DNA of 38,724 nucleotides from a bacterium (GCA_021790215.1 JAJYIG010000005.1:1-38724); one strand, 5' to 3'; counted from the stretch's first letter, positions 1 through 38,363 are shown. The notes: generated by a model not told the origin, from the sequence alone. Numbers and translations are program-made.

Positions 1-498
1 ATGACGGGCTATTACTTAATTTTTATCTTACTTTTTGCAGTTGTCCTAGGGCAAATCTGGAAATTGAAATTTGTCGGAAAGATTTCGATACTTTGTTTTC
101 TTTATCTATTTTTCGTAAATAACGTTCCGGTTACTCTGGGGAGAATTAGTGACACATGTCAGGGATCAACGAGTATCTGTTTTAGTAATCAGAAAGATGC
201 GATAGACTGGATTTACAAAGATGCGGGGAATCGGAATTTTGATGTTGATGAATATGTTCCGCCCGTCATACCTTATTCCTATAACTATCTTTTTACATGG
301 CTTGGAAATACTAAATACCACAAGCTCCCTATGGATTCCCGGGTGCCACTTTTATATACTCTCTATGAAGTAGATCCTCCCCATCCTGAACGACTTCAGG
401 CTTGGCTTGCCAGGCAAGCAGGAATCGGCAAAGTGGTTAAGGAGGCATCGTTTGGAGGAATTACAGTACAGGAGAGGGAAAGAATTGTAACAAAATGA
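1..498 (+). CDS. C-terminal part of a GT-C (GT39/ArnT-like) membrane glycosyltransferase, 5' end missing
   Basis: The 165-residue frame opens at the first base of the window. It has one or two hydrophobic segments in residues 4-45, then a soluble tail with the pattern AIDWIYKDAG followed by VDEYVPPVIPYSYNYLF. Such a tail is typical of the exported C-terminal domain of CPR PMT/ArnT-like proteins, which are normally about 500 residues long. The catalytic N-terminal loops are absent, so the gene either starts upstream of the window or is 5'-truncated. Its stop overlaps the next gene's start as ATGA, which shows it belongs to that operon. The family assignment rests on the tail alone. Whether the ATG at base 1 is the real start cannot be decided here. 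Confidence 0.6.
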   Translation: MTGYYLIFILLFAVVLGQIWKLKFVGKISILCFLYLFFVNNVPVTLGRISDTCQGSTSICFSNQKDAIDWIYKDAGNRNFDVDEYVPPVIPYSYNYLFTWLGNTKYHKLPMDSRVPLLYTLYEVDPPHPERLQAWLARQAGIGKVVKEASFGGITVQERERIVTK

Positions 499-1244
499 AA
501 CCATTTTTAAGTGTGGTCATTCCGGCATATAACGAAGAAATTAACCTTAAGCGGGGGGTACTTAATAGCGTTAACGATTATCTAAAAAGCAAAGATTTTT
601 CTTGGGAAGTGCTGATTCTGGATGATGGTTCAAAAGATGAAACTGCAAAACTGGTTGAGCAGTTTGTGAGAAGTCATAAGAATTTCTTTTTGAAGAAAGA
701 GCCGCACAGGGGTAAAGGTGGAACAATTATGGCAGGCGCAAAAGCCGCGAAAGGTAAATATGTGCTTTTTACTGATATGGATCAATCTACTCCGATGGAT
801 CAGTTTGATAAATTCATGCCAAAAATTAGGTCAGGTTTTGATGTTGTAATTGGAAGAAGGAACGGGAGGCCGGGACAGCCGTTTGTTAGAAAAATTATGG
901 CATACGGCTTTGTTATTTTAAGGACGTTAATTTTAAGACTACCATTTGAGGATACTCAATGCGGTTTTAAGGTTTATAAAAATGAGGCTGCTGACAAAAT
1001 TTTTTTGAAAATTCAAATATATGGAGGGAGGTCTGGTTCCAAAACAGGATCTGTATCGGCGGGATTTGATTTGGAAACACTGTTTATTGCCAGAAAATTA
1101 GGACTTAAAGTTGCTGATGTTCCGGTGGAATGGTATGAATATGGTGAAAGAAAAGAAGTTAATCCGATTAAAGACTCCTGGGAGGGATTTAGAGATTTAA
1201 TAAAAATCCGTCTTAATGCACTTCAGGGAAAATACAAGGTTTGA
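495..1244 (+). CDS. GT2 polyprenyl-phosphate sugar synthase (dolichyl-phosphate glucose synthase-like)
   Basis: This 249-residue GT-A enzyme of family GT2 resembles dolichyl-phosphate beta-glucosyltransferases. Visible motifs are SVVIPAYNEE near the N-terminus, LDDGSKDET at residues 42-50, an HRGKGG loop at 71-76, the metal-binding DMDQSTP at 94-100 and DTQCGFKVY further on. DxDxSTP and DTQCGFK are characteristic of the DPG synthase group. The expected role is transfer of a hexose from a nucleotide sugar to polyprenyl phosphate on the cytoplasmic membrane face, making donors for GT-C enzymes. No long C-terminal membrane anchor is seen. The start overlaps the preceding stop (ATGA). The sugar specificity cannot be read from the sequence. 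Confidence 0.85.
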   Translation: MKPFLSVVIPAYNEEINLKRGVLNSVNDYLKSKDFSWEVLILDDGSKDETAKLVEQFVRSHKNFFLKKEPHRGKGGTIMAGAKAAKGKYVLFTDMDQSTPMDQFDKFMPKIRSGFDVVIGRRNGRPGQPFVRKIMAYGFVILRTLILRLPFEDTQCGFKVYKNEAADKIFLKIQIYGGRSGSKTGSVSAGFDLETLFIARKLGLKVADVPVEWYEYGERKEVNPIKDSWEGFRDLIKIRLNALQGKYKV

Positions 1245-1479: not shown

Positions 1480-2379
1480 ATGTCTTCTAGCCTTTCAGTC
1501 GTTATAAACACCCTGAATGAGGGGAAGGAACTGCCCAGGGTGATAAAGTCAGTAAAAAATCTTGCGGATGAAATTGTAGTTGTTGATATGGAATCGGATG
1601 ACAATACCCATGATGTAGCCAAAAAACTTGGCGCCAAAGTATTTACACATAAAAGGCTCAGTTATGTTGAGCCGGCAAGAAATTTTGCTGTAGGTAAAAC
1701 CACAGGGGATTGGATTTTAATTCTTGATCCGGATGAGGAGGTCCCCAATTCTCTTGCTAAGAAAATAAAAGAAATTATTAAAAACAGTGAAGCTGATTAT
1801 TATCGAATAGCAAGAAAAAACATAATTTTTGGTAAGTGGATAGTCCATTCCAGATGGTGGCCGGATTACAATATTCGTCTTTTTAAGAAAGGAACTATCT
1901 CCTGGAATGAGATAATCCATGGAGTCCCCATGACTCAGGGGAAAGGTGGCGAACTGCCAGCGGAGGAAGACTTTGCAATTATTCATCATCACTATGATTC
2001 CATTGAGAGATACCTGGGCCACCTTAACCGCTACACTTCGGTACAGAAGGATTTGAAAATCAAAGAAGGTTATAAATTTTCCTGGAACGATTTAATAGGA
2101 AGACCGATAGATGAATTTTTAAGCAGATATTTTTCCGGCGAGGGATATAAAGACGGGGTTCACGGATTATCCCTCTGTCTTCTTCAATCTTTTTCGGAAC
2201 TTATTTTATATCTCAAAATTTGGCAGGAGGAAAAATTCAAGGAAGAAGAAATACCACTTTCTGATGTTATCTCGAAAATGCGGGAAAAAGAAAGTGAACT
2301 TCATTTTTGGCAATCGGAGGCTCTTTTTAAAGCTACGGGAAACTTTATGTATAAGATCAAAAGAAGGTTGAAGATATGA
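1480..2379 (+). CDS. GT2 glycosyltransferase, WaaE/LpcC-like
   Basis: This 299-residue cytoplasmic GT-A enzyme belongs to the group that includes WaaE/KdtX and Beta4-glucosyltransferase-like proteins. It shows TLNE (11-14), the nucleotide-binding region VVDMESDD (34-41), EPARNFA (64-70), DPDEE (83-87) in place of the usual DADEE, and a later block, RWWPDYNIRLFKKG, that recurs in paralogues. The C-terminal third is helical and charged and carries one semi-hydrophobic stretch, which suggests membrane association. Transcription probably starts at its ATG from the promoter at 1465. Its stop overlaps the next GT2 (ATGA). Paralogues lie at 3313 and 33549. Donor and acceptor are unknown. Confidence 0.85.
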   Translation: MSSSLSVVINTLNEGKELPRVIKSVKNLADEIVVVDMESDDNTHDVAKKLGAKVFTHKRLSYVEPARNFAVGKTTGDWILILDPDEEVPNSLAKKIKEIIKNSEADYYRIARKNIIFGKWIVHSRWWPDYNIRLFKKGTISWNEIIHGVPMTQGKGGELPAEEDFAIIHHHYDSIERYLGHLNRYTSVQKDLKIKEGYKFSWNDLIGRPIDEFLSRYFSGEGYKDGVHGLSLCLLQSFSELILYLKIWQEEKFKEEEIPLSDVISKMREKESELHFWQSEALFKATGNFMYKIKRRLKI

Positions 2380-3308
2380 TTACACCCAGAGTCTCCTTAA
2401 TTATTCTCACAACAAACGCTCTTTCGATGACTCAGAAACAACTTCAGGATGTTGCCAAGCTTGATACAAAAGGAGTCGAGACGGAGTGTTTAGTTGTTGA
2501 TAACGGCAGTAAAGACGGCACAGAAAAATCGCTAAAGAAATATAAATTAAAAAATATCGATTATAAATTTATTGAAACAGGAAAAAATCTTGGTTTTGCC
2601 GGAGGGAACAATATAGGAATAAAAGACGCATTGAAACGTGGTGCTGATTATGTAATTTTGATGAACAATGATCTGATATTATCAAAAGATTTGGTTACAT
2701 TGTTGGTTGGATTTATGGAACAAAATTCGGATATTGGTATGGCCTCCCCAAAAATGTATTTTGCTAAAGGTTATGAATTCTATAAGGAAAGATATAACAA
2801 AGAAGAGGTGGGAAAGGTGTTTTGGTATGCGGGGGGAATTATTGATTGGAATAATATTCTATCAAGTCACCGTGGAGTGGACGAGGTGGATGTGGGGCAA
2901 TATAACCAAATTTGGCAAACGGATTTTGTAAATGGGGCATGTGTGATTATAAGGAAAGATGTTTTTGAAAAGATCGGTTTTTTAGATTCTTCGCTTTTCC
3001 TTTACTGGGAGGATGCAGATTTTTCTCAAAGGGCAAAAAGGGCTGGTTTTAAGGTGGTGTATTACCCTGATACCTGTATTTGGCATAAAGTTTCTGCCTC
3101 AACCGGAGGTAGCGGAAGCCCCTCAAATGACTATTTTCTAATAAGGAACAGATTTTATTTTGCCTTAAAGTATGCTAGTTTTCGGGCAAAATTTGCAGTA
3201 TTTAAAGATACATTAAAATTAGCCTTTACGGGTAGGGAGTGGCAGAGAAAAGGAGCGATGGATGCATTATGGGGTGTGAAAGGAATGGGGGCCTGGGCGA
3301 ATCGTTAA
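2376..3308 (+). CDS. GT2 rhamnosyltransferase-like enzyme (RfbF/WcaA type)
   Basis: The product is a 310-residue GT2 enzyme. Motifs are SLIILTTN near the N-terminus, VDNGSKDGT (41-49), GKNLGFAGGNN (69-79), the metal-binding MNNDL (96-100), WQTDFVNGACVIIRK and the YWEDADFSQRAKRAG catalytic-base region. This combination is typical of the RfbF-like branch that adds deoxysugars or hexoses to O-antigen-type chains. After about residue 250 there is an amphipathic tail likely to touch the membrane. The start overlaps the previous stop (ATGA) and only 4 nt separate it from the next gene, so it is mid-operon. Specificity for rhamnose is a family label, not a demonstrated activity. Confidence 0.85.
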   Translation: MITPRVSLIILTTNALSMTQKQLQDVAKLDTKGVETECLVVDNGSKDGTEKSLKKYKLKNIDYKFIETGKNLGFAGGNNIGIKDALKRGADYVILMNNDLILSKDLVTLLVGFMEQNSDIGMASPKMYFAKGYEFYKERYNKEEVGKVFWYAGGIIDWNNILSSHRGVDEVDVGQYNQIWQTDFVNGACVIIRKDVFEKIGFLDSSLFLYWEDADFSQRAKRAGFKVVYYPDTCIWHKVSASTGGSGSPSNDYFLIRNRFYFALKYASFRAKFAVFKDTLKLAFTGREWQRKGAMDALWGVKGMGAWANR

Positions 3309-3312
3309 AATT

Positions 3313-4065
3313 ATGGAAAAAGAATTCAGGAAGAATACAATTTCTGCAATAATCCTTTTAGGCGGGGGGTATGATGACGAATCATTAAAGAAGAAATGCT
3401 TTGATTCAGTTAAGTGGTGTGATGAAGTAATAAAGGTCGAAACGGATAAATTGAAAGGAAGTTTTTCGGATTGGCGGAACGAGGGAGCCAAACGTGCCAA
3501 GAGTAATTGGCTTTTGTATGTGGATGCAGATGAGGAAGTAACAGAAGATCTAAGAAAAAACATTCTTCAGGTAACCGATGCGGGTGAGTTTGCCGGTTAT
3601 GCAATTCCCCGGAAAAATATATTTTTGGGACATACTATGCATTGGGGTGGGTGGTCGCCGGATTTTGTACTGAGACTTATCAGGAAAGATAAATTGAAAG
3701 GTTGGAAAGGAGAGCTTCATGAACAGCCGGTTATTGAAGGAGTAATTGGTCATCTTAAGGAATCATTGATCCATGTGAGCCACAGGAGTCTTACAGAGAT
3801 GGTGGAAAAAACAAATAACTGGTCTGAGATAGAAGCGAAACTCCTTTATGATTCAGGGCATCCGAAAATGAATATTTTTAGATTTATCTCGGCAGGATTT
3901 CGTGAGTTTTGGTACCGCGCAGTTGTAAAATTGGGTTTCTTGGACGGAACAGTGGGGATAATCGAAATCATTTACCAAACTTTTAGCCGTTTTGTCACAT
4001 ACTCAAAATTATGGGAGTTACAGATGCGAAATTCCAAATCCCAAGAACCAAATAACAAACAATGA
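3313..4065 (+). CDS. GT2 WaaE-like glycosyltransferase variant with an altered N-terminal nucleotide site
   Basis: This 250-residue paralogue of the 1480 and 33549 products keeps the metal-binding DADEE (71-75), YAIPRKNIFLGHTMHWGGW and the VLRLIRKDK and GELHEQP blocks. It lacks the usual TLNEE motif (here LLGGGYDDES) and the DxxSTDxT nucleotide-binding loop (here VETDKLKGSFSDW), which makes the N-terminal part short. It may use another donor or be weakly active. The last residues, roughly NSKSQEPNNKQ, are encoded by an AT-rich repeat that continues past the stop, so the native C-terminus probably ended near YSKLWELQ. It starts 4 nt after the previous gene with no clear SD. Confidence 0.78.
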   Translation: MEKEFRKNTISAIILLGGGYDDESLKKKCFDSVKWCDEVIKVETDKLKGSFSDWRNEGAKRAKSNWLLYVDADEEVTEDLRKNILQVTDAGEFAGYAIPRKNIFLGHTMHWGGWSPDFVLRLIRKDKLKGWKGELHEQPVIEGVIGHLKESLIHVSHRSLTEMVEKTNNWSEIEAKLLYDSGHPKMNIFRFISAGFREFWYRAVVKLGFLDGTVGIIEIIYQTFSRFVTYSKLWELQMRNSKSQEPNNKQ

Positions 4066-4143
4066 AAACAAAAATTCCAAGCGCTAACTCCAACATTGTA
4101 ATTTGTATATTGTTTGGAACTTGTAATTTGTGATTTGAAATTT
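4029..4143 (+). repeat. Long imperfect inverted repeat spanning a gene end and an intergenic gap
   Basis: The left arm begins AAATTCCAAATCCCAAG and contains AACAAACAATG. The right arm ends with CATTGTAATTTG through TTGTGATTTGAAATTT. The reverse complement of the right arm begins AAATTTCAAATCACAA and aligns imperfectly with the left arm over about 50 bases. The element supplies the last residues and stop of the GT2 gene at 3313 and runs to 4 bases before the GT4 start at 4147. Related AT-rich words appear at 37630-37690. Confidence 0.7.
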
Positions 4144-4146
4144 ATT

Positions 4147-5163
4147 ATGAGAGCGGCAATTTTTAATCCATATCTTGATACTTTAGGAGGTGGTGAACGC
4201 TACACTCTCTCTTTTGCTCATGTTTTGGCTGAAAGCGAATTTTCCACTGACTTGGAATGGAAAGAGCCAGAAATTAAAAAGATTCTTGAAGAAAGATTTG
4301 GAATGGATTTGTCAAAAATTAATGTTATACCAGACGTCAAAAGGGGGGACGGGTACGATATTTGTTTTTGGGTATCGGACGGCAGCATCCCTCTTCTTCG
4401 GGCGCGGAAAAACTTTCTCCATTTTCAAGTCCCCTTCCATGGGGTTAACGGTAGGACTCTTTTAAATAAGATGAAGCTTTTCAGAATAAATAAAATAGTT
4501 TGCAACTCCCGCTTCACTAAAGGGTTTATTGATAAAGAATACGGCGTCGATTCGGTTGTAATTTATCCACCGGTAGCTACCGATAAAATTAGACCGATGA
4601 GAAAAGAAAACATAATTCTTTTTGTTGGCAGATTTTCCCGGCTTAAGCAGAGTAAAGGACAGGACGTGTTAATTAATGCTTTTAAAAAGCTGTACGATGA
4701 AGGAACTAAAGATTGGAAGCTTGTCCTTGCGGGTGGTATGGAGATTGGGGTTGGAGATTACCTTGGAAAATTAAAGTCTGACGCTAGAGGTTACCCCATC
4801 GAATTTATCGAAAGCCCGGATTTTAAAACTCTGAAGAACTTATACGGGAAGGCAAAAATTTTTTGGAGCGCTTCCGGATTTGGTGAAGATGAAGCAAAAA
4901 ATCCCGAAAAGGTGGAACATTTTGGCATATCTGTAGTTGAGGCAATGGCAGGAGGAGCAGTGCCGATTGTCTATAATGCGGGCGGACATAAAGAAATTGT
5001 TCAGGACGGTAAGAATGGTTTTTTGTGGGACACGGTCGAAGAGCTGCTTGAAAAAACCAGATTGCTTGTGAACGACAATCGGGGACTTTCTAAAAATGCT
5101 GTTCAGGCGAGCAAATCTTTTTCTTATGAAAACTTTAGCTCTGAAGTTAAAAAAATACTCTAA
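4147..5163 (+). CDS. GT4 glycosyltransferase (ALG11-like)
   Basis: This GT-B enzyme of 338 residues opens with MRAAIFNPYLDTLGGGERY, a glycine-rich acceptor-side motif seen in ALG11-type GT4 proteins. LFVGRFSRLKQSKGQDVLINAF marks the start of the C-terminal Rossmann domain, and EHFGISVVEAMAGGAVPIV is the donor phosphate-binding E-x7-E region. The expected role is transfer of mannose or glucose to a lipid-linked oligosaccharide on the cytoplasmic face. The ORF track starts at TTG 4114, but those 11 extra residues (LELVICDLKFI) are translated repeat sequence, so I start at ATG 4147. The gene stands 81 nt after its neighbour, separated by the inverted repeat. Confidence 0.85.
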   Translation: MRAAIFNPYLDTLGGGERYTLSFAHVLAESEFSTDLEWKEPEIKKILEERFGMDLSKINVIPDVKRGDGYDICFWVSDGSIPLLRARKNFLHFQVPFHGVNGRTLLNKMKLFRINKIVCNSRFTKGFIDKEYGVDSVVIYPPVATDKIRPMRKENIILFVGRFSRLKQSKGQDVLINAFKKLYDEGTKDWKLVLAGGMEIGVGDYLGKLKSDARGYPIEFIESPDFKTLKNLYGKAKIFWSASGFGEDEAKNPEKVEHFGISVVEAMAGGAVPIVYNAGGHKEIVQDGKNGFLWDTVEELLEKTRLLVNDNRGLSKNAVQASKSFSYENFSSEVKKIL

Positions 5164-10223: not shown

Positions 10224-11720
10224 GTGGAAGAAGACAATTTGATGAGTCATGTTGATCCGACAGCCGAGATCAACCTCGAAACCGTCAAGAGTAGGACCGT
10301 AAAGGGGATTGTTGCTCTGACACAACAATATTTTGGTGTTTATATAATTACCATAGTTGCCTATTTCTTTTTAGGCAAATTTCTAAACCCTGTTCTTTTC
10401 GGGATCTTTGGTGTCGTTTCAGCAATTATTAATTTTCTGGTTTACTTTTCTGATATAGGTTTAGCTGCCTCTCTGATTCAAAAAAAGGAAAAGATTACTC
10501 AAGAAGATTTAAAAACAACCTTCACAGTTCAGCAAATTCTTGTGATTACGTTGGTTGTAACAGTTGTGGCGGCGACATCACTTATAAAACGATTTTATAA
10601 TCTTGACCAAAGCTCCGTCTATTTACTTTATGCACTTTGTTTTTCGTTTATGATGTCTTCCTTAAAGTCTATTCCTTCCGTGATTTTGGAACGACATCTG
10701 AAATTTGAAGTAATCGCTCTTTCGGCGATTATAGAAACACTGGTTTACAATTTGGTCTTGGTTTTTCTGGCATGGAAAGGATTTGGAATTACCAGTTTTA
10801 CCATTTCTGTAATAGCTAGAGGCATTATCGGAGTAACTGTTTTATACCTGTTTCAGCCATGGAGACCTGCCTTGCAGATATCCCTAAAGTCCCTCAAGAA
10901 ACTTCTTGTTTTTGGAATCCCATATCAGATAAATACATTCATAGCTGTTATTAAAGATGATGGCTTAACACTAATTTTAGGTAGGGTAATCGGATTGGGG
11001 CCTCTTGGAATACTTTCCTGGGCTCAAGGCTGGATTCAAATGCCGCTACGTGTAGTTCTTGATAATGTAACTAGAGTTACTTTCCCGGCGTTTTCCAGGA
11101 TGCAGGATGATGCTAAAAATCTGGAGAGAAGTGTAACGAGGTCAATTTTCTTTATAACCCTTTTGGTTTTCCCGACTGTTACGGGAATTGTGATTCTGGC
11201 TCCGATCGTTTTTCAGTCGATTCCGAAGTTTGGGCAATGGATGCCTGCTGTCATTCCGCTTGCTTTTTTGGCAGTGAATGTCTTATTTGCCGCCGTTACG
11301 ACCCAACTTACCAATCTTCTTAATGCTATCGGAAAGATTAAAATAACTTCAGGACTTATGGTTATGTGGACAGCATTAACATGGGTTTTTGTGCCGTATC
11401 TCGGGTCAAAATATGGGGTTAATGGGGCATCTATCGGTTATGCCATTGTTGGAGCGTCGTCGATTGTCGCGATCTTAATTGCAAGGAAATATGTTAATTT
11501 TTCTTTGACGGAAAGTACTTTAAAGCCACTTTTTGCCTCATTTATTATGGCGGCCGTTTTACTAACTTTAAGAAACTTCTTACCGGTCAACCTTTATTCA
11601 GTTCTCATATTGACAGTTGTCGGTGCGGTTGCGTATTTTGCTTCAATTTTTGTTTTTGTCGGCATGACGATTGTTGAAGATATTAGAAAAGTTGGCGGAA
11701 TAATAATCCACAGAAAATGA
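10224..11720 (+). CDS. Wzx-type lipid-linked oligosaccharide flippase (MOP superfamily)
   Basis: This 498-residue integral membrane protein has about 12 to 14 hydrophobic segments. A short acidic N-terminal tail is followed by GIVALTQQYFGVYIITIVAYFF, then NPVLFGIFGVVSAIINFLVYFSDIGLAASLIQ, a signature of polysaccharide-export flippases (Polysacc_synt family, WzxC-like). It should move undecaprenyl-linked glycan units from the inner to the outer membrane leaflet. It is the only exporter in the window and so the probable link between the soluble GTs and the GT-C enzymes. The GTG start follows the extended -10 by 6 nt; ATG 10242 is an alternative without an SD. Its stop overlaps the next gene (ATGA). 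Confidence 0.87.
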   Translation: MEEDNLMSHVDPTAEINLETVKSRTVKGIVALTQQYFGVYIITIVAYFFLGKFLNPVLFGIFGVVSAIINFLVYFSDIGLAASLIQKKEKITQEDLKTTFTVQQILVITLVVTVVAATSLIKRFYNLDQSSVYLLYALCFSFMMSSLKSIPSVILERHLKFEVIALSAIIETLVYNLVLVFLAWKGFGITSFTISVIARGIIGVTVLYLFQPWRPALQISLKSLKKLLVFGIPYQINTFIAVIKDDGLTLILGRVIGLGPLGILSWAQGWIQMPLRVVLDNVTRVTFPAFSRMQDDAKNLERSVTRSIFFITLLVFPTVTGIVILAPIVFQSIPKFGQWMPAVIPLAFLAVNVLFAAVTTQLTNLLNAIGKIKITSGLMVMWTALTWVFVPYLGSKYGVNGASIGYAIVGASSIVAILIARKYVNFSLTESTLKPLFASFIMAAVLLTLRNFLPVNLYSVLILTVVGAVAYFASIFVFVGMTIVEDIRKVGGIIIHRK

Positions 11721-13405
11721 GATCTAATTGGGGAAAATGGCCTCTGATAATAATTGGAATGGTTTTGTGGTCCCTGACGATGGTCAGAAGCGGACTGACT
11801 TATTCTTACGGACTCGGATTCTGGGGGGCTAATGGGCATGATGGAGTTTGGCATATTGCCTTGATTAATAGTTTGTCTAAAGGCAACTTTCAAATGCCGG
11901 TATTTTCTGGCTGGAATATTCAGAATTATCATATCGGATTTGATCTTCTTTTATCGTGGATTGTGAGGTTTATTAAAATTTCGCCTTCTCTATTGTATTT
12001 TCAGATAGTTCCTCCAATTTTGGCGACTCTGATAGGACTCCTTACATATAAATTTGTCTATTTGTGGAGAAAGTCAAAAGAGGAATCTTTACTGGCTACC
12101 TTTTTTGTTTATTTCGGTGGAAGTTTTGGATGGCTAGTTTCATTGATTAGAGGACAAGGAATTGGAGGAGAAAGTATGTTCTGGTCACAGCAATCGATAT
12201 CTACTCTTATTAATCCCCCGTTTGCACTCTCTTTAATAACAGTTCTCTTGGGACTTATCTTTCTGCAAAAATATTTAGAAAAAAAATCCCTAATGAATTT
12301 CAGTTTGATGATTCTATTTTTCGGAGTCTCAATTTTCATTAAAGTATATGCCGGACTTTTGGTTATGTCGTCACTGGTGGCGGTATCTATTTGGCAAATT
12401 ATCAAAAAGAGAGATTTTTCACTTTTGGGGATAACGTTGATATCTGCAGCAGTCTCGGTTTTGTTATTTGTTCCTTTTAATAAATCTTCCGCCAGTTTAA
12501 TTTCTTTTAGCCCATTCTGGTTTTTGGAATCAATGATGTCATCGCCCGACAGATTTAATTGGCAAAAGATGTATTCCGCAATGACGACATACAAAATGGG
12601 TCATGTTTGGGTTAAAGCTTTCCTGGCTTACAGTGTGGCATTTACTATTTTTATAGTCGGAAATTTTGGTACCAGGATTATTGGTTTAAGGTCACTACTT
12701 AGGAAACCCAAGGAATTATTCTCAACCGGACCCATAGAAATATTTATTGCCATATTAATTTTGGCAGGGGTAGTAGTCCCCATGCTTTTTACACAGAAAG
12801 GCACCCCCTGGAATACAATCCAATTTTTTTATTACTCTCTTGTATTTGGAGGCATTGTAGCAGGAATAGAAGTGTGGAAATTTTTAAAGAAAAAATCGTT
12901 ATTTAAACAAAGTTTGATAGTTTCCTTTTTTATTCTGTTTACCGTTCCAACAACAATTGCATCGATGGACAATTATTTTCCGGTAAAACCTCAATCTATT
13001 CTTCCACAGGGTGAGATGGAGGCGTTGAGGTTTTTGTCCGAAGAACCAGACGGAGTTGTACTTACATATCCTTACGATGCCTATAAAGCCTCGAAAGCTA
13101 TTCCGCCAAGACCTCTTTATTTATATACATCGACTGCTTACGTCTCTGCATTTTCAGGCCAGCAGATTTTCTTAGAGGATCAAATAAATCTAGATATTAT
13201 GCAATATCCCTGGGAGAAAAGAGAAATATCCATTGAAGATTTTCTGAATACGTTAGATATCGGGAGGGCCAGGAATTTTCTAAAGGAAAATAACATTAGG
13301 TATATCTATTGGTTGAAAGATCAACATGCGAATGTGGAAAATAAAAAGCTTGGCTTGACGCAAATATTCCAGAATAGTAGTGTTACAATTTATGAAGTAA
13401 ATTGA
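11717..13405 (+). CDS. GDG-WH polytopic membrane protein, GT-C-like (shorter paralogue)
   Basis: This 562-residue membrane protein is the first of three paralogues (with 16861 and 18866). The shared exported loop reads GFWGANGHDGVWHIAL (34-49) followed by NYHIGFDLL. Later come GGESMFWSQQ with NPP, and QKGTPWNTIQFFYY. The end is a soluble domain containing EMEALRFLSEEPDGVVL and TAYVSAFSGQQ. It begins about 95 residues closer to the GDG motif than its paralogues, so it lacks their N-terminal helices. The topology suggests a GT-C enzyme, but I do not recognise a named family and the activity is inferred. Coupling to the flippase (ATGA) implies a role in the same pathway. Confidence 0.65.
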   Translation: MRSNWGKWPLIIIGMVLWSLTMVRSGLTYSYGLGFWGANGHDGVWHIALINSLSKGNFQMPVFSGWNIQNYHIGFDLLLSWIVRFIKISPSLLYFQIVPPILATLIGLLTYKFVYLWRKSKEESLLATFFVYFGGSFGWLVSLIRGQGIGGESMFWSQQSISTLINPPFALSLITVLLGLIFLQKYLEKKSLMNFSLMILFFGVSIFIKVYAGLLVMSSLVAVSIWQIIKKRDFSLLGITLISAAVSVLLFVPFNKSSASLISFSPFWFLESMMSSPDRFNWQKMYSAMTTYKMGHVWVKAFLAYSVAFTIFIVGNFGTRIIGLRSLLRKPKELFSTGPIEIFIAILILAGVVVPMLFTQKGTPWNTIQFFYYSLVFGGIVAGIEVWKFLKKKSLFKQSLIVSFFILFTVPTTIASMDNYFPVKPQSILPQGEMEALRFLSEEPDGVVLTYPYDAYKASKAIPPRPLYLYTSTAYVSAFSGQQIFLEDQINLDIMQYPWEKREISIEDFLNTLDIGRARNFLKENNIRYIYWLKDQHANVENKKLGLTQIFQNSSVTIYEVN

Positions 13406-13421
13406 AAGCCCAATCTTTAGA

Positions 13422-13427
13422 GTAAAT
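13422..13427 (+). promoter_or_regulatory. Weak candidate -10 before the PTPS-related gene
   Basis: GTAAAT followed by TAAAGT and ATG 13434 keeps the 6-nt spacing and the AAG at discriminator positions 3-5 seen at the three stronger sites. It lacks the TG extension and a good hexamer. The 28-nt gap makes a promoter possible. Confidence 0.25.
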
Positions 13428-13433
13428 TAAAGT

Positions 13434-15176
13434 ATGACTAAAAATAAAAATGGTTCTACAAAGGCAAAAGTTTCGTTGAAGGAAAAGCTATCACTTTTTT
13501 CAAGAAAGAAAATATTTTGGGTAATTCTGATTACACTTCTGACTATTCCTACATTCTCAAGCATAATTAGGGCCGGCTTTTTCCCAATGCAGGATGACCT
13601 TCAGGCCTTTCGTATTTATGAGATGAATAAATGTATTCAGGATTTTCAGATTCCTTGTCGTTGGGTTCCGGATGCAGGTTATCAGTATGGCTACCCTCAG
13701 TTTAATTATTATCCTCCAAGTGTTTATTACGTTGGAGAAGCGTTGCACCTAGTTGGTTTTCAATATATTGATTCCGTAAAGATTCTATTTGCTGCAGGTT
13801 TTGTTCTCTCGGCTCTGGCAATGTTTCTTTTGGTCAGTGATTTATTGGGAAATTTATCGGGGTTCGTTTCGGCTCTTACCTATGCATATGTGCCGTATAA
13901 AGCAGTTGAGGTCTATGTTAGGGGGGACATGAGTGAGCTTTGGTCTATGGTATTCTATCCATTGGTTTTTTGGGCTGTTTATAAAATTATCAAAACTTCA
14001 AAGTGGAAGTATGCCGCTCTTTTGGGGATATCATTAGCCCTTCTTTTAATGACTCATCTTCTGATGTCTATGATATTTTCTCTTTCTGCGGCGGTTTGGA
14101 CGGTATATTGGCTTATTAAGGAAAAGAAATTCAATATAAAAGAAATATCTAGAGTTGCAGGAGGGGTTATTCTGGGGTTTGGCTTTGCAGCGTTTTATGT
14201 TTTGCCTGTTATCTTTGAAAGGCAATATGCTCATACGGAGACTCTTACCGAGGGATATTTTGGCTACCAACAGCATTTTGTGAATATCTTCAGGCTATTT
14301 TTTTACACCGATTGGGGATATGGGTCTTCAGGTTTCCCAAATGAAAAACTGAATCTTTCAACAGGTATTGTTCAATGGATATTTGGGGCAATTACGGTTG
14401 GAATTGCCGGCTTCTGCGTTTTACTCAAAAAGAAGAAAGATAATCTTTATCTTGTTTTAATCTTAGGAATACTTGAAATTTTTACTCTCTTTATGATTCA
14501 TGTCAAATCAAGTTTCATCTGGAGTGCCATACCAATCTTATCTTGGCTGCAATTTCCCTGGAGATTTTTAACCGTAAGTGTCTTTCTTTTATCTGTCCTG
14601 GCAGGGTTTGGAATTTATCTTGTTCCCAAATTTAAAATTTGGGTAGGAATTTTGGTAATTCTGGCGGCATTTGCTATCAACGCTCGTTATTTTGTCCCTA
14701 AGAGTTGGATAGATATTAATGATGCCGAGAAGTTCTCAGGAGTGTCATGGCAGAAAGAACTGACTATTAGTATCTTTGATTACCTGCCGATTTATGCAAA
14801 GTTACCCCCTATAGCTCCGGCACCGGCTACGCCTGAAGTTTTGAAAGGAACCGCAACATTTTCGAATTACACAAAAGGTAGCGATTTCCAAGGAGGAAAT
14901 ATTAATACTGGTGCAAATGGAGCTTTAATTCGCCTTCCCTTATTTGATTTTCCCGGAATGATTACAAAGATCGATGGGCGTGTGGTTCCCCACGTAAACA
15001 ATAACTGCGTAGGAGAAGAATTCTGTTTGGGTCTTATTACTTTTAATGTTCCGGCTGGGGAGCATAAAATTGAGGTAAAATTAACCGGTACTCCGATAAG
15101 GAGGGTTGGAAACTATCTATCGGTGATCTCGATTGCAACAATCGCGGGAATCTTGATTTTTAGAAAAAAGAAATGA
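13434..15176 (+). CDS. PTPS-related membrane protein with YfhO-like C-terminal domain
   Basis: This 580-residue protein has a basic N-terminus, a first helix at about 28-45, then an exported loop with GFFPMQDDLQAFRIYEM (49-64), CRWVPDAGYQYGYPQFNYYPP (75-95) and YVRGDMSELW. That matches the membrane family misnamed 6-pyruvoyl-tetrahydropterin synthase-related (PF10131), which is GT-C-like in architecture. The C-terminus is a soluble beta-rich domain with FPGMITKIDGRVV and VPAGEHKIEV, as in YfhO-type proteins, before a last helix at about 563-576. Cysteines 67/75 and 525/531 occur only in this paralogue's exported parts. Enzyme activity is not established for the family. Its stop overlaps the next gene, its tandem paralogue. 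Confidence 0.72.
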   Translation: MTKNKNGSTKAKVSLKEKLSLFSRKKIFWVILITLLTIPTFSSIIRAGFFPMQDDLQAFRIYEMNKCIQDFQIPCRWVPDAGYQYGYPQFNYYPPSVYYVGEALHLVGFQYIDSVKILFAAGFVLSALAMFLLVSDLLGNLSGFVSALTYAYVPYKAVEVYVRGDMSELWSMVFYPLVFWAVYKIIKTSKWKYAALLGISLALLLMTHLLMSMIFSLSAAVWTVYWLIKEKKFNIKEISRVAGGVILGFGFAAFYVLPVIFERQYAHTETLTEGYFGYQQHFVNIFRLFFYTDWGYGSSGFPNEKLNLSTGIVQWIFGAITVGIAGFCVLLKKKKDNLYLVLILGILEIFTLFMIHVKSSFIWSAIPILSWLQFPWRFLTVSVFLLSVLAGFGIYLVPKFKIWVGILVILAAFAINARYFVPKSWIDINDAEKFSGVSWQKELTISIFDYLPIYAKLPPIAPAPATPEVLKGTATFSNYTKGSDFQGGNINTGANGALIRLPLFDFPGMITKIDGRVVPHVNNNCVGEEFCLGLITFNVPAGEHKIEVKLTGTPIRRVGNYLSVISIATIAGILIFRKKK

Positions 15177-16864
15177 AGAAATTTTTAAAGATTAAAAAAA
15201 TATTAAATAGATTTTGGTGGATTCTAATTTTATTATTCATAATCCCTTCTTTTAGTAGATTAATCCATAAAGGGTTTTTCCCGACTCAAGATTATATTTA
15301 TGTCGCGAGGATTTACGAGATGAGTAAATCTCTTGATGAGGGACAATTCCCTGTTCGATGGGTCCCTGACTTCCGTTATGGCGAACCTCTATTTAATTAT
15401 TATGCACCTTTGCCATATTACCTGGGTTCTTTTGTCCACTCTTTTAATATTAGTTTTCTAGACACCTCCAAAATCTTATATGCATTGGGTCTTATATTTT
15501 CTTTTTTCTCAATGTATCTTCTTGGTAAAGAACTTTGGGGAAAAATCGGAGGATTGATATCTGCCTTTGTCTATCTTTATGCACCGTATAGAGCGGTAGA
15601 TATATTTGTTAGAGGTGATATTTCGGAAAGTTGGGTCTTTGTCTTTTTTCCTCTAATATTTTGGGGAGCATTAAGGTTATCGAAGAAAATCGATGCAAAG
15701 AATATAATTCTTCTTTCATTGTCTTTGGCCGGGCTTTTTTATACTCACAATGTAATGACAATGCTTTTTGCACCCTTTTTTATTGGGTGGATCATTTATT
15801 TAGTATGGTCAAAGTGGAAATTTAAATTGGTGTTACCTTTGATTCTTACGTCGCTACTGGGTATTGCAATAGCGGCAAGCTTTTTGCTACCTGCGTTTTT
15901 TGAGAGACAATTTATTCAGACACAGCACCTGACAGGAGGTTATTTTGACTTTAGGGGACATTTTGTGGAAATTAAGCAATTTTTCTCAACGTTTTGGGGA
16001 TATGGAGCATCGGTTTGGGGCCCGCATGATGGCATGTCCTTCCAGGTAGGGGTGGTTCAGTGGGTTACTGTTGGTTTAACTATCATTCTGGGATATATAA
16101 AAAGAAAAGAAATTATAAAAGACAGGTCGATATATCTTTTGGGAGCGATCCTTGCTTCTTTCCTTTTTTCCTTGTTTATGCAGCACAATAAATCGACCTT
16201 TATTTGGCTTGCAATTCCCATTCTTCAATTTGTCCAATTTCCGTGGAGGTTTTTAGCAATATCGGTTTTCTTTGTTGCTGTTTTTGTCGGGAGTCTGGCA
16301 AAATTAATGCCTAAATATAAATATTTAATATTAGGTCTGGTTGTTGTCTCTGCGATTATTACTACTTACAAGTATTTCAGACCGGATTTTTACTACGATA
16401 ATGCTACAGATGCTGGTTACATTTCCCAACAAACGCTTTCAATTGATGATAAACTTCCCAAAGATTACTTACCGATTTGGGTGAAGAAAATATCTTCTCC
16501 TAAGATAACTCAACCAGCGATAGTTAGTGGTCAGGCAACCATATCTAATTATGCAACAAGAAGTGACTCTGCCACTTTTTATCTTGATGTTGAGAAAAAT
16601 ACGGTAATTGATGTTCCTTTGACTTTTTTCCCCGGGTGGGTAGTGAAATTAAATGGGAACAAAGTTGGTTTAATGAACCCGTCAGATCTTGGTTTGATTA
16701 GGTTTACGGCACCGGCGGGTAGCTATAAAGTTCAGGTTAATTTTGACAACACACCAATTAGGACAGTCGGCAACATAGTTTCAATTCTTGGTATCGGTAT
16801 GGTCTTATATATTGCTCTTTTCTCAAAATCTTTGTTCCGAAGGCAAAAATCCGCTAAAGCATGA
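15173..16864 (+). CDS. PTPS-related membrane protein with YfhO-like C-terminal domain (tandem paralogue)
   Basis: This 563-residue paralogue of the preceding gene is collinear throughout. It has GFFPTQDYIYVARIYEM, RWVPDFRYGEPLFNYYAP, FVRGDISESW, FERQFIQTQHLTGGYFDFRGHF and WLAIPILQFVQFPWRF in the same order. The C-terminal domain carries FFPGWVVKLNGNKV, APAGSYKVQVNF and TPIRTVGN. The cysteine pairs of its neighbour are absent (S68 and V76 replace C67 and C75). The conserved acidic and aromatic loop residues make a shared, probably glycan-related, activity likely. ATGA overlaps at both ends couple it to its paralogue and to the GDG-WH gene at 16861. The function is inferred from family architecture and context. 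Confidence 0.7.
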   Translation: MKKFLKIKKILNRFWWILILLFIIPSFSRLIHKGFFPTQDYIYVARIYEMSKSLDEGQFPVRWVPDFRYGEPLFNYYAPLPYYLGSFVHSFNISFLDTSKILYALGLIFSFFSMYLLGKELWGKIGGLISAFVYLYAPYRAVDIFVRGDISESWVFVFFPLIFWGALRLSKKIDAKNIILLSLSLAGLFYTHNVMTMLFAPFFIGWIIYLVWSKWKFKLVLPLILTSLLGIAIAASFLLPAFFERQFIQTQHLTGGYFDFRGHFVEIKQFFSTFWGYGASVWGPHDGMSFQVGVVQWVTVGLTIILGYIKRKEIIKDRSIYLLGAILASFLFSLFMQHNKSTFIWLAIPILQFVQFPWRFLAISVFFVAVFVGSLAKLMPKYKYLILGLVVVSAIITTYKYFRPDFYYDNATDAGYISQQTLSIDDKLPKDYLPIWVKKISSPKITQPAIVSGQATISNYATRSDSATFYLDVEKNTVIDVPLTFFPGWVVKLNGNKVGLMNPSDLGLIRFTAPAGSYKVQVNFDNTPIRTVGNIVSILGIGMVLYIALFSKSLFRRQKSAKA

Positions 16865-18861
16865 TTTTCCAAACACTAGGTTTTTTATTACTCTTTATTT
16901 TTTTGACTTTACTTTCTTTTTATCCGCTAGGTTATTTGGTTCTTGGTAAAAATGTTAATAAATTGGAAGGTAATGAAATTATTACACTGTCTTTTGCTGC
17001 TTCGATTGTACTTTTCGTTTTGCTTTCGGTATCTTTGACCTTGATTAAGGCACAGTCGTTGTTAATTTTCCTTATTATCGGATTAAATCTCTTCTCGATT
17101 TTTAAATACAGATTAAAACTCTTTGCACCCTGGAAATCGCTTTCTAAAGATTTTGTACTTTTGCTTTTAATTTTTATAGGAATCCTGGTTCAGGGATTTA
17201 TTGATTTTCCCAGCGGTTATCTTTATAAAGATGGTCTACTTTTCTGGAGTTCTCAGGGATTTGATGGTTTTTGGCACATCTCGCTAATGGAAGCAATTGC
17301 CAAAGGTATTCCTCCTCAAATATCTCTTTTTTCCGGGGCATACCTTCAAAATTATCATTATCTGGTTGATATTCTAATGGGGGAATATAATCGAATTTAT
17401 AGTTTCTTCTCACCGCTAGACCTTTATTTTCGTTTCTTCCCTGTTCTTTTCTCCTTTCTCATGGGAATCTCCGTATTTTCTTTTATGAACAGGTGGAAAA
17501 ATAAGGTAGTAGGTTATTGGGCGGTTTTTTTCACCTATTTTGTCGGTAGTTTCGGATTTGTTGTAACTTATTTGCATTCAGGTAAAATATTCGGTGGGGA
17601 AACTGCTTTTTGGGTATCACAACTGAATACTGTAATAGCTAATCCTCCACATGCGTCAGCGATAACACTTCTCTGCGCTTTTCTTCTATCTTTTCTTCTT
17701 TTTACAAGATCTAAATCAAAAAGCTGGTTTTATATTTGTGTATTAATCGGATCGGTTATAGCCGGTTTTAAAATATCAGGCGGTGTGGTACTTTTGGCAG
17801 GGCTTGGTGCAGCTTCATTATTTCAAGTCATTAAAGATAAAAAATTTGACTACGCAATTTTATTCTTATCCCTTCTCGCAACTAATTTTATAACAGTACA
17901 TCTGATTTCGCCTGATGCCGAATCGTACCTTATTTTTCAGCCCTGGTGGTTTATTCAGACAATGATTGTTGTGAAGCTGGGACTTATTGATTGGGAACTT
18001 AGGAGACAAACATACATGGCAGTTGGCAGGTTTACATCTTATTTAAGAATATTACAACTCGAAGGAACTGCTTTCCTCATCTTTGTTGTCGGAAACTTGG
18101 GGACAAGGATTGTCGGATTTCCAACGATATTGGGGAAATTATTCCATTTCAAAAAGAAAATTTTAGGAAGCCCTATCGATGCGTTTCTTCTGTCTGCAGC
18201 ATTGGCCGGATTTGTAATTCCGATGATCTTCCTGCAGAAAGGTATTGTTTATAACAGCATTCAATTCATGCAATATACCCTTTTGATAACAGGGTTTTAC
18301 GGAGCTATCTTCACTTATTCTGCGCTGAAAAAAACTAAATCCAGAGTGCTGAAATTTTTATTTGTTTTTGTCTTAATTGCGCTTTCTATTCCGACCGTTA
18401 TCGGTAATTTTGTTGAGTTTTACGGAGGTCCTGCCAATGCTGTAATCAGTAATAATGAACTTTCAGCGTTAAAATTTCTAAAAGACAATTCGAAGGCAAG
18501 TGATATAATTTTAACCCCACCATTTGATGGCAATGCAAAATATGGTTATAAGACAAACCCACTTCCTATCTATGCCTGGACCGGAACTGCGTATGTTTCT
18601 TCCTTGACAGATAGGGCGACATTTCTTAGCTGTGAGGAAATGCTCCGCCAAACGGGTTACAATGTTGACCTCAGGCTTAATCAGGAAAAAAAGTTTTTCT
18701 CGCAAAAAGATTTTATATCTAATAGGAATTTCCTTAAGGAAAATAAAATTGCATATATTTATGTTCCGACTCCCAGAAAATATTCTTTGCAAGAAGAAGA
18801 TAATGGTTTGACTAAAATATTTTCAAATAATGAGGTCAGTATCTATAAAGTGAATAATTAA
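16861..18861 (+). CDS. GDG-WH polytopic membrane protein, GT-C-like
   Basis: This 666-residue protein is a close paralogue of 18866 and a more distant one of 11717. Three or four N-terminal helices (about 1-112) precede the loop LLFWSSQGFDGFWHISLMEA (126-145) and NYHYLVDILM. GGETAFWVSQ and NPP follow, then a block starting FQPWWFIQTMIVV at residue 359 that is almost identical in 18866, then QKGIVYNSIQFMQY. The soluble C-terminal domain includes LSALKFLKDN and TGTAYVSSLTDR. The position after first helices, with acidic and His residues in an exported loop, suggests a GT-C enzyme. No named family was recognised. It overlaps the previous gene (ATGA) and lies 4 nt from the next. Confidence 0.65.
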   Translation: MIFQTLGFLLLFIFLTLLSFYPLGYLVLGKNVNKLEGNEIITLSFAASIVLFVLLSVSLTLIKAQSLLIFLIIGLNLFSIFKYRLKLFAPWKSLSKDFVLLLLIFIGILVQGFIDFPSGYLYKDGLLFWSSQGFDGFWHISLMEAIAKGIPPQISLFSGAYLQNYHYLVDILMGEYNRIYSFFSPLDLYFRFFPVLFSFLMGISVFSFMNRWKNKVVGYWAVFFTYFVGSFGFVVTYLHSGKIFGGETAFWVSQLNTVIANPPHASAITLLCAFLLSFLLFTRSKSKSWFYICVLIGSVIAGFKISGGVVLLAGLGAASLFQVIKDKKFDYAILFLSLLATNFITVHLISPDAESYLIFQPWWFIQTMIVVKLGLIDWELRRQTYMAVGRFTSYLRILQLEGTAFLIFVVGNLGTRIVGFPTILGKLFHFKKKILGSPIDAFLLSAALAGFVIPMIFLQKGIVYNSIQFMQYTLLITGFYGAIFTYSALKKTKSRVLKFLFVFVLIALSIPTVIGNFVEFYGGPANAVISNNELSALKFLKDNSKASDIILTPPFDGNAKYGYKTNPLPIYAWTGTAYVSSLTDRATFLSCEEMLRQTGYNVDLRLNQEKKFFSQKDFISNRNFLKENKIAYIYVPTPRKYSLQEEDNGLTKIFSNNEVSIYKVNN

Positions 18862-18865
18862 CTTT

Positions 18866-20872
18866 ATGTTCATAGAAGTTGTAAAGACATTACTTTTGCT
18901 GATTTTGTTTTTGTCTGTTAGCGTGGTGGTTTTTACTGCACCCGGATTTGGGGTGTTAAAGATGTCTCGAGTTAATCTTCGTGATAACTTAGAAAAGTAT
19001 ACGATCTCTACAATAATCGGCATGGCAGCTTTTACACTAATATCCTATTTACTTGTTATTGTTCATGCTAGGTTTTTACTGTGGTCTTTTCCGGTATTCG
19101 GCTTCTTTTTGTTGATAAAGTACTTTAAGACTATTTTCCTCCGTGATAAATTTCGACTTAGTCGAGCTGGCCTTGTCTTTTTTGTTGTGATTATTATTTT
19201 TGGAGTGATAACTCAGGTTGCAATTAATGCCCCATCAGGATTCAACTTCAATGGGAGTCTTCTTTTTTGGAGCGCACAAGGACGGGACGGGATGTGGCAT
19301 GTTGCTCTTATGGAAGAGATGAAGAGAAATACTTTTCCATTTCAGAATCCGGAATACACCGGACATATTCTGCGAAATTACCATTTTTTTATTGATTTAG
19401 TAATGTCTGATTTTTCCAGAATGTTTCACTTCTCGAGTCTGGATGTTTACTTTCGTTTTTTCCCGGTCCTTCTCTCTATTCTTTTAGGTCTTTCTAGTTT
19501 TATCTTCGTAAAGGCGTGGGCGAAAAACATAAAAGCTGGACTTTGGGCAATGGTGTTTACATACTTTGCCGGCAGTTTTGGTTTTGTAGTTACCTTGATA
19601 AGGAATCGAACAATCGGGGGGGAAACAATGTTTTGGATGAGCCAAACCCCTTCAGTTCTTGGTAACCCTCCGCAGGCGGCTGCTTTTATATTGTTTATTG
19701 GGTTTCTTTTCATATTTCTTGAGTATTTGAGATTGCGAAAAGTATCATATTTGATTTTGGCTGGGTTACTTGGTGGAGTGACAATAGAATTTAAAGTTTA
19801 TGGTGGGTTAATTCTTCTAGGGTCCCTATTTGTTACGGGAGTTTACGAACTTATTTTTAAGAAAAAATATAAGATTCTCATCCTTTTCTTGGGCTCCTTA
19901 ATTATTTCTTCGGCTCTTTATTTTCCAAACTCAAAAGGATCGGGTAGCTTTATTATCTTTCAGCCCTGGTGGTTTATTCAAACAATGATAGTTGTTAATT
20001 TAGGTCTTATTGATTGGGAACTCAGACGCCAGACATATTTGGCAGTAGGCCGATTCACATCTTATTTACGGATATTACAGTTGGAAGGAACCGCCTTCCT
20101 AATTTATCTTTTTGGGAATTTGGGGGTTAGATCAATCGGTTTTATAAAAATAGCTAGAGATTTAATTAAGAGGGATATAGTAAAATCAATCAATATTTTT
20201 ATTTATGCATCTTCTTTGATAGCGTTTACCATACCGCTTCTCTTCTTGCAGAAAGGTGTTGTTTATAATTCTATTCAATTTTCCCAATATTTTCTTTTGT
20301 TTTTCGGATTTTTAGCAGCGATATCGGCAAGCCGGGTTATTGGAAGCCTCAAATATAATTATGCTAAGTTTGCACTGGCTTTTGTTATTATTGTCTTGGC
20401 GTTGCCCACAACACTAGGGCTTCTTTGGCAATTCTATTCTAATAAGCCATTAGCAAAGGTTGATGCCGCAGAACTTTCTGCTTTGAATTTTCTAAAAACT
20501 ACCGGTTCGGATTCTGTTATCCTGACTGCTCCTTATAATCAGTACAATCAAGGTAAAAACGGTATTCCTCCAGTACCGATTTATGATTGGAGTGATACGG
20601 GTTATGTTGCTGCTCTTTCCGCGAGGCGGACATTGATTTCTGATACACAGCAAATAGACATCATGGGATATGATTATAAAAATCTGGAAAGTGCCAGAGA
20701 AGCTGCCTTTAACGATACAACAGGGAAATTGCTTTCCTTGTTCATTAAAAAGTACGATGTTGATTATTTGTATTTAAATATGGGCGAAAGCAGTAAAATA
20801 AATTATTCAAACCTGAATTTGGCTAGAGTGTTCGTGAATAGCGAGGTAGAAATTTACAGGGTTAATAAATAA
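18866..20872 (+). CDS. GDG-WH polytopic membrane protein, GT-C-like (closest paralogue of 16861)
   Basis: This 668-residue protein shares the whole layout of its upstream neighbour: N-terminal helices (about 1-120), LLFWSAQGRDGMWHVALMEE (132-151), NYHFFIDLVM, GGETMFWMSQ with GNPP, the FQPWWFIQTMIVV block from residue 365, QKGVVYNSIQFSQY and a soluble tail with LSALNFLKTTGSDSVIL and DTGYVAALSARR. In a 62-residue core 54 positions are identical to 16861, much more than in the flanks. Tandem duplication with a constrained core fits best. The start is ATG 18866, 4 nt after the previous stop. A GTG start follows its own stop immediately. Activity is unknown; a polyprenyl-phosphate-using GT-C enzyme is my inference. 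Confidence 0.65.
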   Translation: MFIEVVKTLLLLILFLSVSVVVFTAPGFGVLKMSRVNLRDNLEKYTISTIIGMAAFTLISYLLVIVHARFLLWSFPVFGFFLLIKYFKTIFLRDKFRLSRAGLVFFVVIIIFGVITQVAINAPSGFNFNGSLLFWSAQGRDGMWHVALMEEMKRNTFPFQNPEYTGHILRNYHFFIDLVMSDFSRMFHFSSLDVYFRFFPVLLSILLGLSSFIFVKAWAKNIKAGLWAMVFTYFAGSFGFVVTLIRNRTIGGETMFWMSQTPSVLGNPPQAAAFILFIGFLFIFLEYLRLRKVSYLILAGLLGGVTIEFKVYGGLILLGSLFVTGVYELIFKKKYKILILFLGSLIISSALYFPNSKGSGSFIIFQPWWFIQTMIVVNLGLIDWELRRQTYLAVGRFTSYLRILQLEGTAFLIYLFGNLGVRSIGFIKIARDLIKRDIVKSINIFIYASSLIAFTIPLLFLQKGVVYNSIQFSQYFLLFFGFLAAISASRVIGSLKYNYAKFALAFVIIVLALPTTLGLLWQFYSNKPLAKVDAAELSALNFLKTTGSDSVILTAPYNQYNQGKNGIPPVPIYDWSDTGYVAALSARRTLISDTQQIDIMGYDYKNLESAREAAFNDTTGKLLSLFIKKYDVDYLYLNMGESSKINYSNLNLARVFVNSEVEIYRVNK

Positions 20873-37694: not shown

Positions 37695-38363
37695 ATGCAT
37701 ATATTTATAGTTATTCCTCTTTTTAATGAAGAGAAACATACCTCCCAGGTTATCAAGAGCATTGCAAGGTATAAACTTCCAATCGTCGTCGTTGATGATG
37801 GGAGTGTGGACGAGTCAAGATTAAAGATTGAGGATTTAAGATTGAAGAATGTCACTGTTCTTGAACACAAAGTCAATCTCGGTAAGGGAGCGGCAATGAA
37901 GACCGGGGCTGATTATGCTTTTGGCAGAGGAGCTGACGCCGTGATTTTTATGGACTCTGATGGTCAGCATCTGGCTTCGGACTTGCCAAGGTTTATTCAA
38001 GTTTTGAAATCCGGAAGTGCAGATGTGGTTTTTGGTTCAAGAAATTTGAGTTACGGCGTCCCATTTGTCAGATATATTGGCAACAAGGTTGCTTCTGTTA
38101 TTGCTGCGACATTTTTCGATGTATATGTTTCGGATGCAATTTGCGGTTTTAGGGCTTTGACGAAAAAGGCGTACAAAAAAGTGAGATGGGATTCCAGGGG
38201 ATATGGAGTTGAGATCGAGATGATAGCAAGAGTAGGGAAGAATAAGGTTAGTCATGTAGAGGTACCTGTTGAAACCATTTATCACGATAAAGTTAAAGGA
38301 GTTACAGTTATTGATGCTTTTGGAGTCTTATTCGAAGTTATAAAATGGAGAATCACGTTGTAA
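37695..38363 (+). CDS. GT2 polyprenyl-phosphate sugar synthase (DPM1-like)
   Basis: This 222-residue GT2 enzyme has FIVIPLFNEE (4-13), VVDDGS (32-37), HKVNLGKGAAMKTG (58-71), MDSDGQH (86-92), a FGSRNL block and DAICGFRALTKKAY. This is the dolichyl-phosphate-mannose or -glucose synthase pattern, making polyprenyl-phosphate sugar on the cytoplasmic face. No C-terminal membrane domain is present; the DUF2304 protein encoded next may anchor it, as such pairs are common. Residues 42-52 (RLKIEDLRLKN) replace the usual short helix and are coded by a repeat. The start is 2 nt after the previous stop, with no clear SD. Confidence 0.85.
   Translation: MHIFIVIPLFNEEKHTSQVIKSIARYKLPIVVVDDGSVDESRLKIEDLRLKNVTVLEHKVNLGKGAAMKTGADYAFGRGADAVIFMDSDGQHLASDLPRFIQVLKSGSADVVFGSRNLSYGVPFVRYIGNKVASVIAATFFDVYVSDAICGFRALTKKAYKKVRWDSRGYGVEIEMIARVGKNKVSHVEVPVETIYHDKVKGVTVIDAFGVLFEVIKWRITL
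37817..37850 (+). repeat. In-frame AAGATT repeat inside the GT2 gene
   Basis: AAGATT occurs three times in 34 bases (AAGATTAAAGATTGAGG then TTTAAGATTGAAGAAT). It codes residues 42-52, between the DDGS motif and the LEHKVNLGKG loop. Confidence 0.6.

Follow-up and report, generated by a model that had tools for sequence, protein, structure and literature searches.

Three paralogous proteins of an uncatalogued family

Three genes in the window, as we call the whole stretch of 38,724 nucleotides that was analysed, encode homologous membrane proteins that, judging from sequence comparison and a structural model, probably form a new GT-C_A family, which would be a familiar enzyme type within a known superfamily. 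On the same evidence, we are slightly more confident still that the family is a GT-C-type transferase. The source bacterium belonged to the Microgenomates of the Candidate Phyla Radiation. The three open reading frames, all on the + strand, lay where the earlier note had placed them, and their homology extended over the full length: members 2 and 3 shared 43% identity (E 1.4e-144), and members 1 and 3 shared 33% identity (E 2.9e-89). A search of the source genome (~1 Mb) indicated that they were its sole family copies. The C-terminus of member 1 was an exported alpha/beta domain, and the N-terminus of member 2 carried a membrane extension of ~95 residues. The genes and their motifs were as follows.

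11717..13405, + strand: family member 1, 562 aa, short clade, GT-C_A-like membrane protein
16861..18861, + strand: family member 2, 666 aa, long clade
18866..20872, + strand: family member 3, 668 aa, long clade
11819..11863, + strand: signature FWGANGHDGVWHIAL of member 1, with D42 (codon 11840-11842) and H46 (codon 11852-11854) inside
17242..17286, + strand: signature FWSSQGFDGFWHISL of member 2, from the motif scan
19265..19309, + strand: signature FWSAQGRDGMWHVAL of member 3, from the motif scan
11924..11953, + strand: NYHIGFDLLL of member 1, start of the second juxtamembrane helix, with N70, Y71, H72 and D76
12341..12355, + strand: KVYAG of member 1, with the invariant K209, aligned with the Lys conserved in the PMT_2 'TK' motif
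12794..12835, + strand: QKGTPWNTIQFFYY motif of member 1, with Q360, N366 and Q369

Four motifs had been described earlier as shared by the three proteins. FWxxxGxDGxWHxxL and QKGxxxNxIQFxxY were exact in all three copies, and the other two proved to be majority patterns. NYHxxxDLxM was literal in member 3 alone (NYHFFIDLVM; NYHIGFDLLL in member 1 and NYHYLVDILM in member 2), and the two long copies alone had GGExxFWxSQ literally, where the short copy has GGESMFWSQQ. NPP was present in all three. The same interval contained two more GT-C-type genes outside the family, 13434-15176 and 15173-16864, for which the evidence was PMT_2 below cut-off and PTPS_related at E 5e-8.

The earlier note recognised no named family in these proteins, and profile searches of Pfam-A 2025 and NCBIfam 20.0 bore this out. 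Members 1-3 had no match in Pfam-A 2025 at E up to 10 and gave only noise in NCBIfam 20.0; an antiporter match of member 1, for example, scored 14.7 bits (E 0.023) where the cut-off is 105. The 69 relatives collected showed only scattered weak matches to Pfam models, with a best E of 0.0006. The DUF2298 Pfam model matched neither the three copies at E up to 10 nor any of the 69 members; no family member exceeded the cut-off for PF13231 or PF02366, and a single weak PMT_2 match (E 0.0064) occurred among the 69. DUF6798, a model of 61 positions, matched weakly in three members (best E 0.003, below cut-off), which was too little to rely on. Among the solved structures in the PDB, neither single-sequence nor profile searches found a sequence relative. 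A confident match to a characterised family was thus found nowhere by sequence, and the structural matches described below were at the level of the superfamily, not of one family.

Predicted fold and membrane topology

The AlphaFold2 model of member 1 had a mean pLDDT of 95.9 and a pTM of 0.94. A comparison of such a model with solved structures had been proposed earlier, and the Foldseek search of the PDB returned 24 matches at E<=1e-3, all of them GT-C enzymes; the match at rank 1 was assigned to an STT3 chain on the basis of the translocon complex that it is part of. The matches were STT3 of OST complexes, AglB, PglB, the C-mannosyltransferase DPY19, AftA and AftD, with a best E of 8.6e-10 and TMq values of 0.47-0.57. 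TM-scores of about 0.5 with high rmsd show a common fold, not a common activity.

According to previous work (PMC12041299), GT-C_A enzymes are built on seven conserved core TM helices, JM1 and JM2 follow TM1 and precede TM2, and the tip of JM helix 1 carries an Asp that is essential in every GT-C_A enzyme. The layout of the member 1 model agreed with this published description. Its eleven TM helices were arranged in the order TM1, JM1 (42-54), JM2 (74-86), a split TM3, PL2, TM4-7 and PL3 (two helices), followed by TM8-11 and the C-terminal domain, and short helices were also present in the second and third exported loops. In the model, D42 opened helix 42-54, which puts it at the tip of JM1 within the exported loop. 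The fraction of K+R was 0.17-0.30 in the predicted cytoplasmic loops versus 0.05-0.12 in the exported loops and domain, with the exception of the short exported-side turn that holds the invariant K209. The modelled topology was independently supported by this positive-inside charge pattern.

Residue conservation among relatives

Seven residues, D42, H46, N166, K209, P266, N316 and Q369, showed no variation in the 69 relatives, and N70, Y71, H72, D76, E152, R320, Q360, N366 and E433 were each present in at least 62 of the 69 sequences. At the motif level, D-x3-H was found in 69/69 and N-Y-H-x3-D in 65-68/69 relatives, with slight variation at two positions, G in 'DG' and W in 'WH'. The D-x3-H...NYH pattern was also kept by 30 of 34 additional members that were sampled later.

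Profile-level relationships

Relationships at the profile level were measured with hhalign, with E-values that refer to single comparisons. The family scored 99.4% against DUF2298 (E 5e-22, ~600 columns), 99.8% against three weak DUF2298-like proteins, L097-L099 (E 1e-27), and 96.6% against PMT_2-type proteins (E 5e-10, TM2-TM6). The DUF2298 match took in the first exported loop, where the N-Y motif lies, and the C-terminal domain, and it also covered the N-terminal extension carried by the long copies. Reversed or column-shuffled control profiles reached at most 2.5%, and a control profile of 39 flippase sequences reached 0.3%. A profile from one PMT_2 subgroup only gave 36%, and PTPS/YfhO-like profiles gave 3-67%, so the family is tied less strongly to PMT_2 than to DUF2298. 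By profile comparison, the family is a distant sister of DUF2298 inside the GT-C superfamily. The 'new glycosyltransferase group' proposed in the earlier note thus held as a family that Pfam and NCBIfam do not catalogue, and did not hold as an isolated group, given this sister at E 5e-22.

In the profile alignment with PMT_2-type proteins, K209 fell on the PMT_2 Lys. In the alignment with L097 (QDTAMH), D42 stood opposite the Asp and H46 opposite the His; since the L097 Asp aligned with the Asp of the PMT_2 'DE', D42 was linked to the latter transitively. A direct placement of D42 on the DUF2298 alignment, where DUF2298 has E-x3-D, was ambiguous by a few residues and was not used. Fold search, profile comparison and topology agreed with the earlier view that the proteins are GT-C-like. 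The place assigned to the D and H residues, in an exported loop where GT-C enzymes have their catalytic Asp, agreed with secondary structure, the positive-inside rule and the transitive PMT_2 'DE' alignment.

L097, L098 and L099, which match DUF2298 weakly, bridge DUF2298 and the family and keep D-x3-H. Their sequences possibly represent a further unnamed family.

Distribution, clades and fusions

A scan of GTDB species genomes with narrow patterns, which was the sole coverage of phyla beyond the source phylum, found 44 loci, all from Microgenomates or from genomes titled only Patescibacteria/Microgenomates; the lineages were Woese-, Blackburn-, Ames-, Davies- and Shapirobacteria. The 69-row profile matched 19 of 382 genomes from the phylum, namely 19 of the 32 sampled from the same class (own family included) and 0 of the 350 outside it. 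A three-row profile gave the same class-restricted outcome. Within the class, 80 of 141 genomes matched better than 1e-40, and 95 matched at 1e-5, the weakest 15 of these with short or distant matches. As far as tested by these sequence searches, the family appeared to be confined to the Microgenomates class.

In the tree, the short clade with member 1 was separate from the two long clades with members 2 and 3. Each clade was common to other genomes, so the paralogues are old. A recent tandem triplication was ruled out, since the three copies fell in three old clades. A 173-base stretch of 80% identity between members 2 and 3 also raised the question of recent gene conversion. This was rejected because the tree sets the two members in separate clades and because the sequence PWWFIRTMVV...DLELRRQ is conserved in long-clade members of other genomes, which makes the stretch a clade motif.

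A third group, from Daviesbacteria and others, had the family domain fused to an exported N-terminal domain of ~460 residues (including L071:4216-7668, L030:1-3435, L019:187-3264, L020:127-3189 and L064:4558-7668). The model of this N-terminal domain had a pLDDT of 87.9, and its best structural match was PDB 3lm3, a putative glycoside hydrolase/deacetylase (E 3e-15), followed by NodB-type deacetylases including ArnD (8t0j), and by GH57 and GH38-type enzymes. A profile of the DUF3863/NodB-like domain matched in 37 of 113 genomes of the class, often unfused in open frames of 480-710 aa; in the source genome, single-sequence and profile searches found no such domain. The exported-side fusion to a carbohydrate-active domain fits a glycan-building role.

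Gene neighbourhood and the flippase

Nearly all genes in the window encoded glycosyltransferases (GT2, GT4, PMT_2-type and PIG-V-like), a flippase or a sugar-nucleotide epimerase. The neighbours that bear on function were as follows.

10224..11720, + strand: Wzx/MOP-type flippase (Polysacc_synt_3), conserved neighbour upstream of member 1
1480..5163, + strand: cytoplasmic glycosyltransferase block, GT2 1480, GT2 2376, GT2-like 3313 and GT4 4114
495..1244, + strand: GT2, best PDB matches sll0501 (GtrB-type) and dolichol-phosphate mannose synthase
37695..38363, + strand: GT2 resembling polyprenyl-phosphate sugar synthases (PpgS, DPMS), below the NCBIfam cut-off

Member 1 lay directly behind the flippase gene, and the two overlapped by 4 bases. 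In other genomes, a relative of this flippase was directly upstream of a short or fused member at 38 of ~42 usable loci, with an overlap or a spacing of <=8 bases, counted from the first possible start codon. A relative of GT2 1480 was directly downstream of a short or fused member at 28 of the ~42 loci, and relatives of the 1480..5163 block followed the short member directly in most other genomes. Unlike these genomes, the window itself has the glycosyltransferase block upstream of member 1. From its sequence matches, the GT2 at 495..1244 is a possible maker of a polyprenyl-phosphate sugar donor.

Several further observations were made among the neighbours. The PMT_2-type protein at 20873-22504 was a borderline STT3 match (24.1-24.7 bits, cut-off 24.5) and the only STT3-like protein (PF02516 match) in its genome. 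One PMT_2 domain extended over two overlapping open reading frames, 27168-27779 (profile positions 1-87) and 27730-28692 (positions 78-151); this arrangement suggests that a GT-C gene has been frameshifted or that the assembly is in error here. At L047, L044, L039, L054 and L063, a membrane protein of ~760-830 aa recurred downstream of the conserved glycosyltransferase block. It had no match among the window proteins, and by its appearance may be YfhO-like.

Proposed function and alternative explanations

From the model and the alignments, we infer the following reaction. The family would transfer a sugar, carried on polyprenyl-phosphate (or polyprenyl-diphosphate), to an acceptor, with both carrier and acceptor at the outer membrane face. 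D42, at the JM1 tip in the first exported loop, would be the catalytic Asp; H46, one helical turn further, would orient either the acceptor or D42 itself. The carrier phosphate would be held by K209, which lies at the outer end of TM5, together with N316, R320 and Q369, and the C-terminal exported alpha/beta domain would cap the site. The short member at 11717 would act on the lipid-linked glycan delivered by the adjacent Wzx-type flippase. We give slightly better than even chances to the reading that such a Wzx-delivered glycan is the substrate, to which a sugar is added or which is polymerised or transferred. Adjacency of the flippase gene is not proof of a common substrate, and the linkage is the best functional lead beyond polyprenyl-linked sugar transfer outside the membrane.

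A reading somewhat short of even odds is that the proteins are conventional monosaccharide transferases of a three-component system, which attach single side-chain sugars taken from polyprenyl-monophosphate, and that the flippase is a neighbour by operon membership only. The resemblance of the window GT2 genes to polyprenyl-phosphate sugar synthases favours this reading, as does the use of monophosphate donors by the homologous PMT_2 proteins and by the fold matches AftA, AftD and DPY19. However, the pairing of flippase and family member, in overlapping genes, is unusually constant for mere operon membership, and the best fold matches are oligosaccharyltransferases with diphosphate donors.

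These top matches, STT3, AglB and PglB, which share a GT-C core and a C-terminal exported alpha/beta domain, raise a less likely alternative, namely an en-bloc transferase or polymerase (OST-, ligase- or Wzy-like) with a flipped polyprenyl-diphosphate glycan as donor. The constant flippase adjacency followed by cytoplasmic glycosyltransferases would suit it, and no Wzy_C match was found on the window contig. Yet the WWDYG motif, even relaxed to WW[DE]xG, occurred in 0/69 members, and no family member matched Pfam STT3 (PF02516). In addition, Wzy_C-type proteins and one initiating sugar-phosphate transferase are encoded on other contigs of the genome, so a polymerase or ligase role of the family is not forced. 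A more specific proposal, which we consider unlikely, is that the short clade is a dedicated outer-face partner of Wzx that polymerises the whole flipped glycan or hands it to an acceptor, replacing Wzy or WaaL, and that some versions bring their own deacetylase-like exported domain.

It is improbable that the proteins have a GT-C-like fold but no enzymatic activity, or act in transport, as degenerate paralogues whose role is structural or regulatory. We found no demonstrated activity in the literature for any relative, DUF2298 included, but seven residues are invariant and the polar ones cluster in exported loops and at the place of the GT-C Asp, which does not resemble a degenerate site. Motif sharing by chance or through hydrophobic composition, which can inflate weak matches in membrane proteins, is already refuted by within-genome E-values of 1e-89 to 1e-144 and by shuffled, reversed and unrelated-membrane controls, none of which scored.

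Significance

Most Microgenomates are uncultured, and next to nothing is known of their surface glycans. Being restricted to this lineage, present in 80 of 141 sampled class genomes and tied to a conserved operon with a flippase, the family points to machinery that probably makes such glycans. The family offers a defined target for heterologous tests, annotation pipelines could name proteins that are now called hypothetical, and DUF2298 gains a stronger link to GT-C enzymes.

Comparison with known systems

Among known systems, DUF2298 (PF10060) shares common ancestry with the family at the profile level over ~600 columns, bridged by L097-L099, but has E-x3-D and NYYYFGH in place of D-x3-H and NYHxxxD. 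PMT_2/ArnT-type proteins (PF13231, PF02366) share the GT-C core, the Lys corresponding to K209 and, through L097, the loop Asp; they have 'DE' where the family has D-x3-H. STT3, AglB and PglB (GT66) gave the best fold matches and combine a TM core with a C-terminal exported alpha/beta domain, whereas identity was ~12% and the family lacks both WWDYG and a Pfam STT3 match. The fused N-terminal domain resembles DUF3863/NodB-type esterases (3lm3, ArnD 8t0j) by fold and by a weak sequence match, and is absent from the source genome. For AftA, AftB and AftD, a comparison of profiles with the PDB detected no sequence relation, and AftA and AftD appeared in the fold-match list. These enzymes share the GT-C_A layout with the family: JM1 and JM2 lie between TM1 and TM2, PL2 and PL3 contain helices, and the C-terminal domain is exported (PMC12041299).
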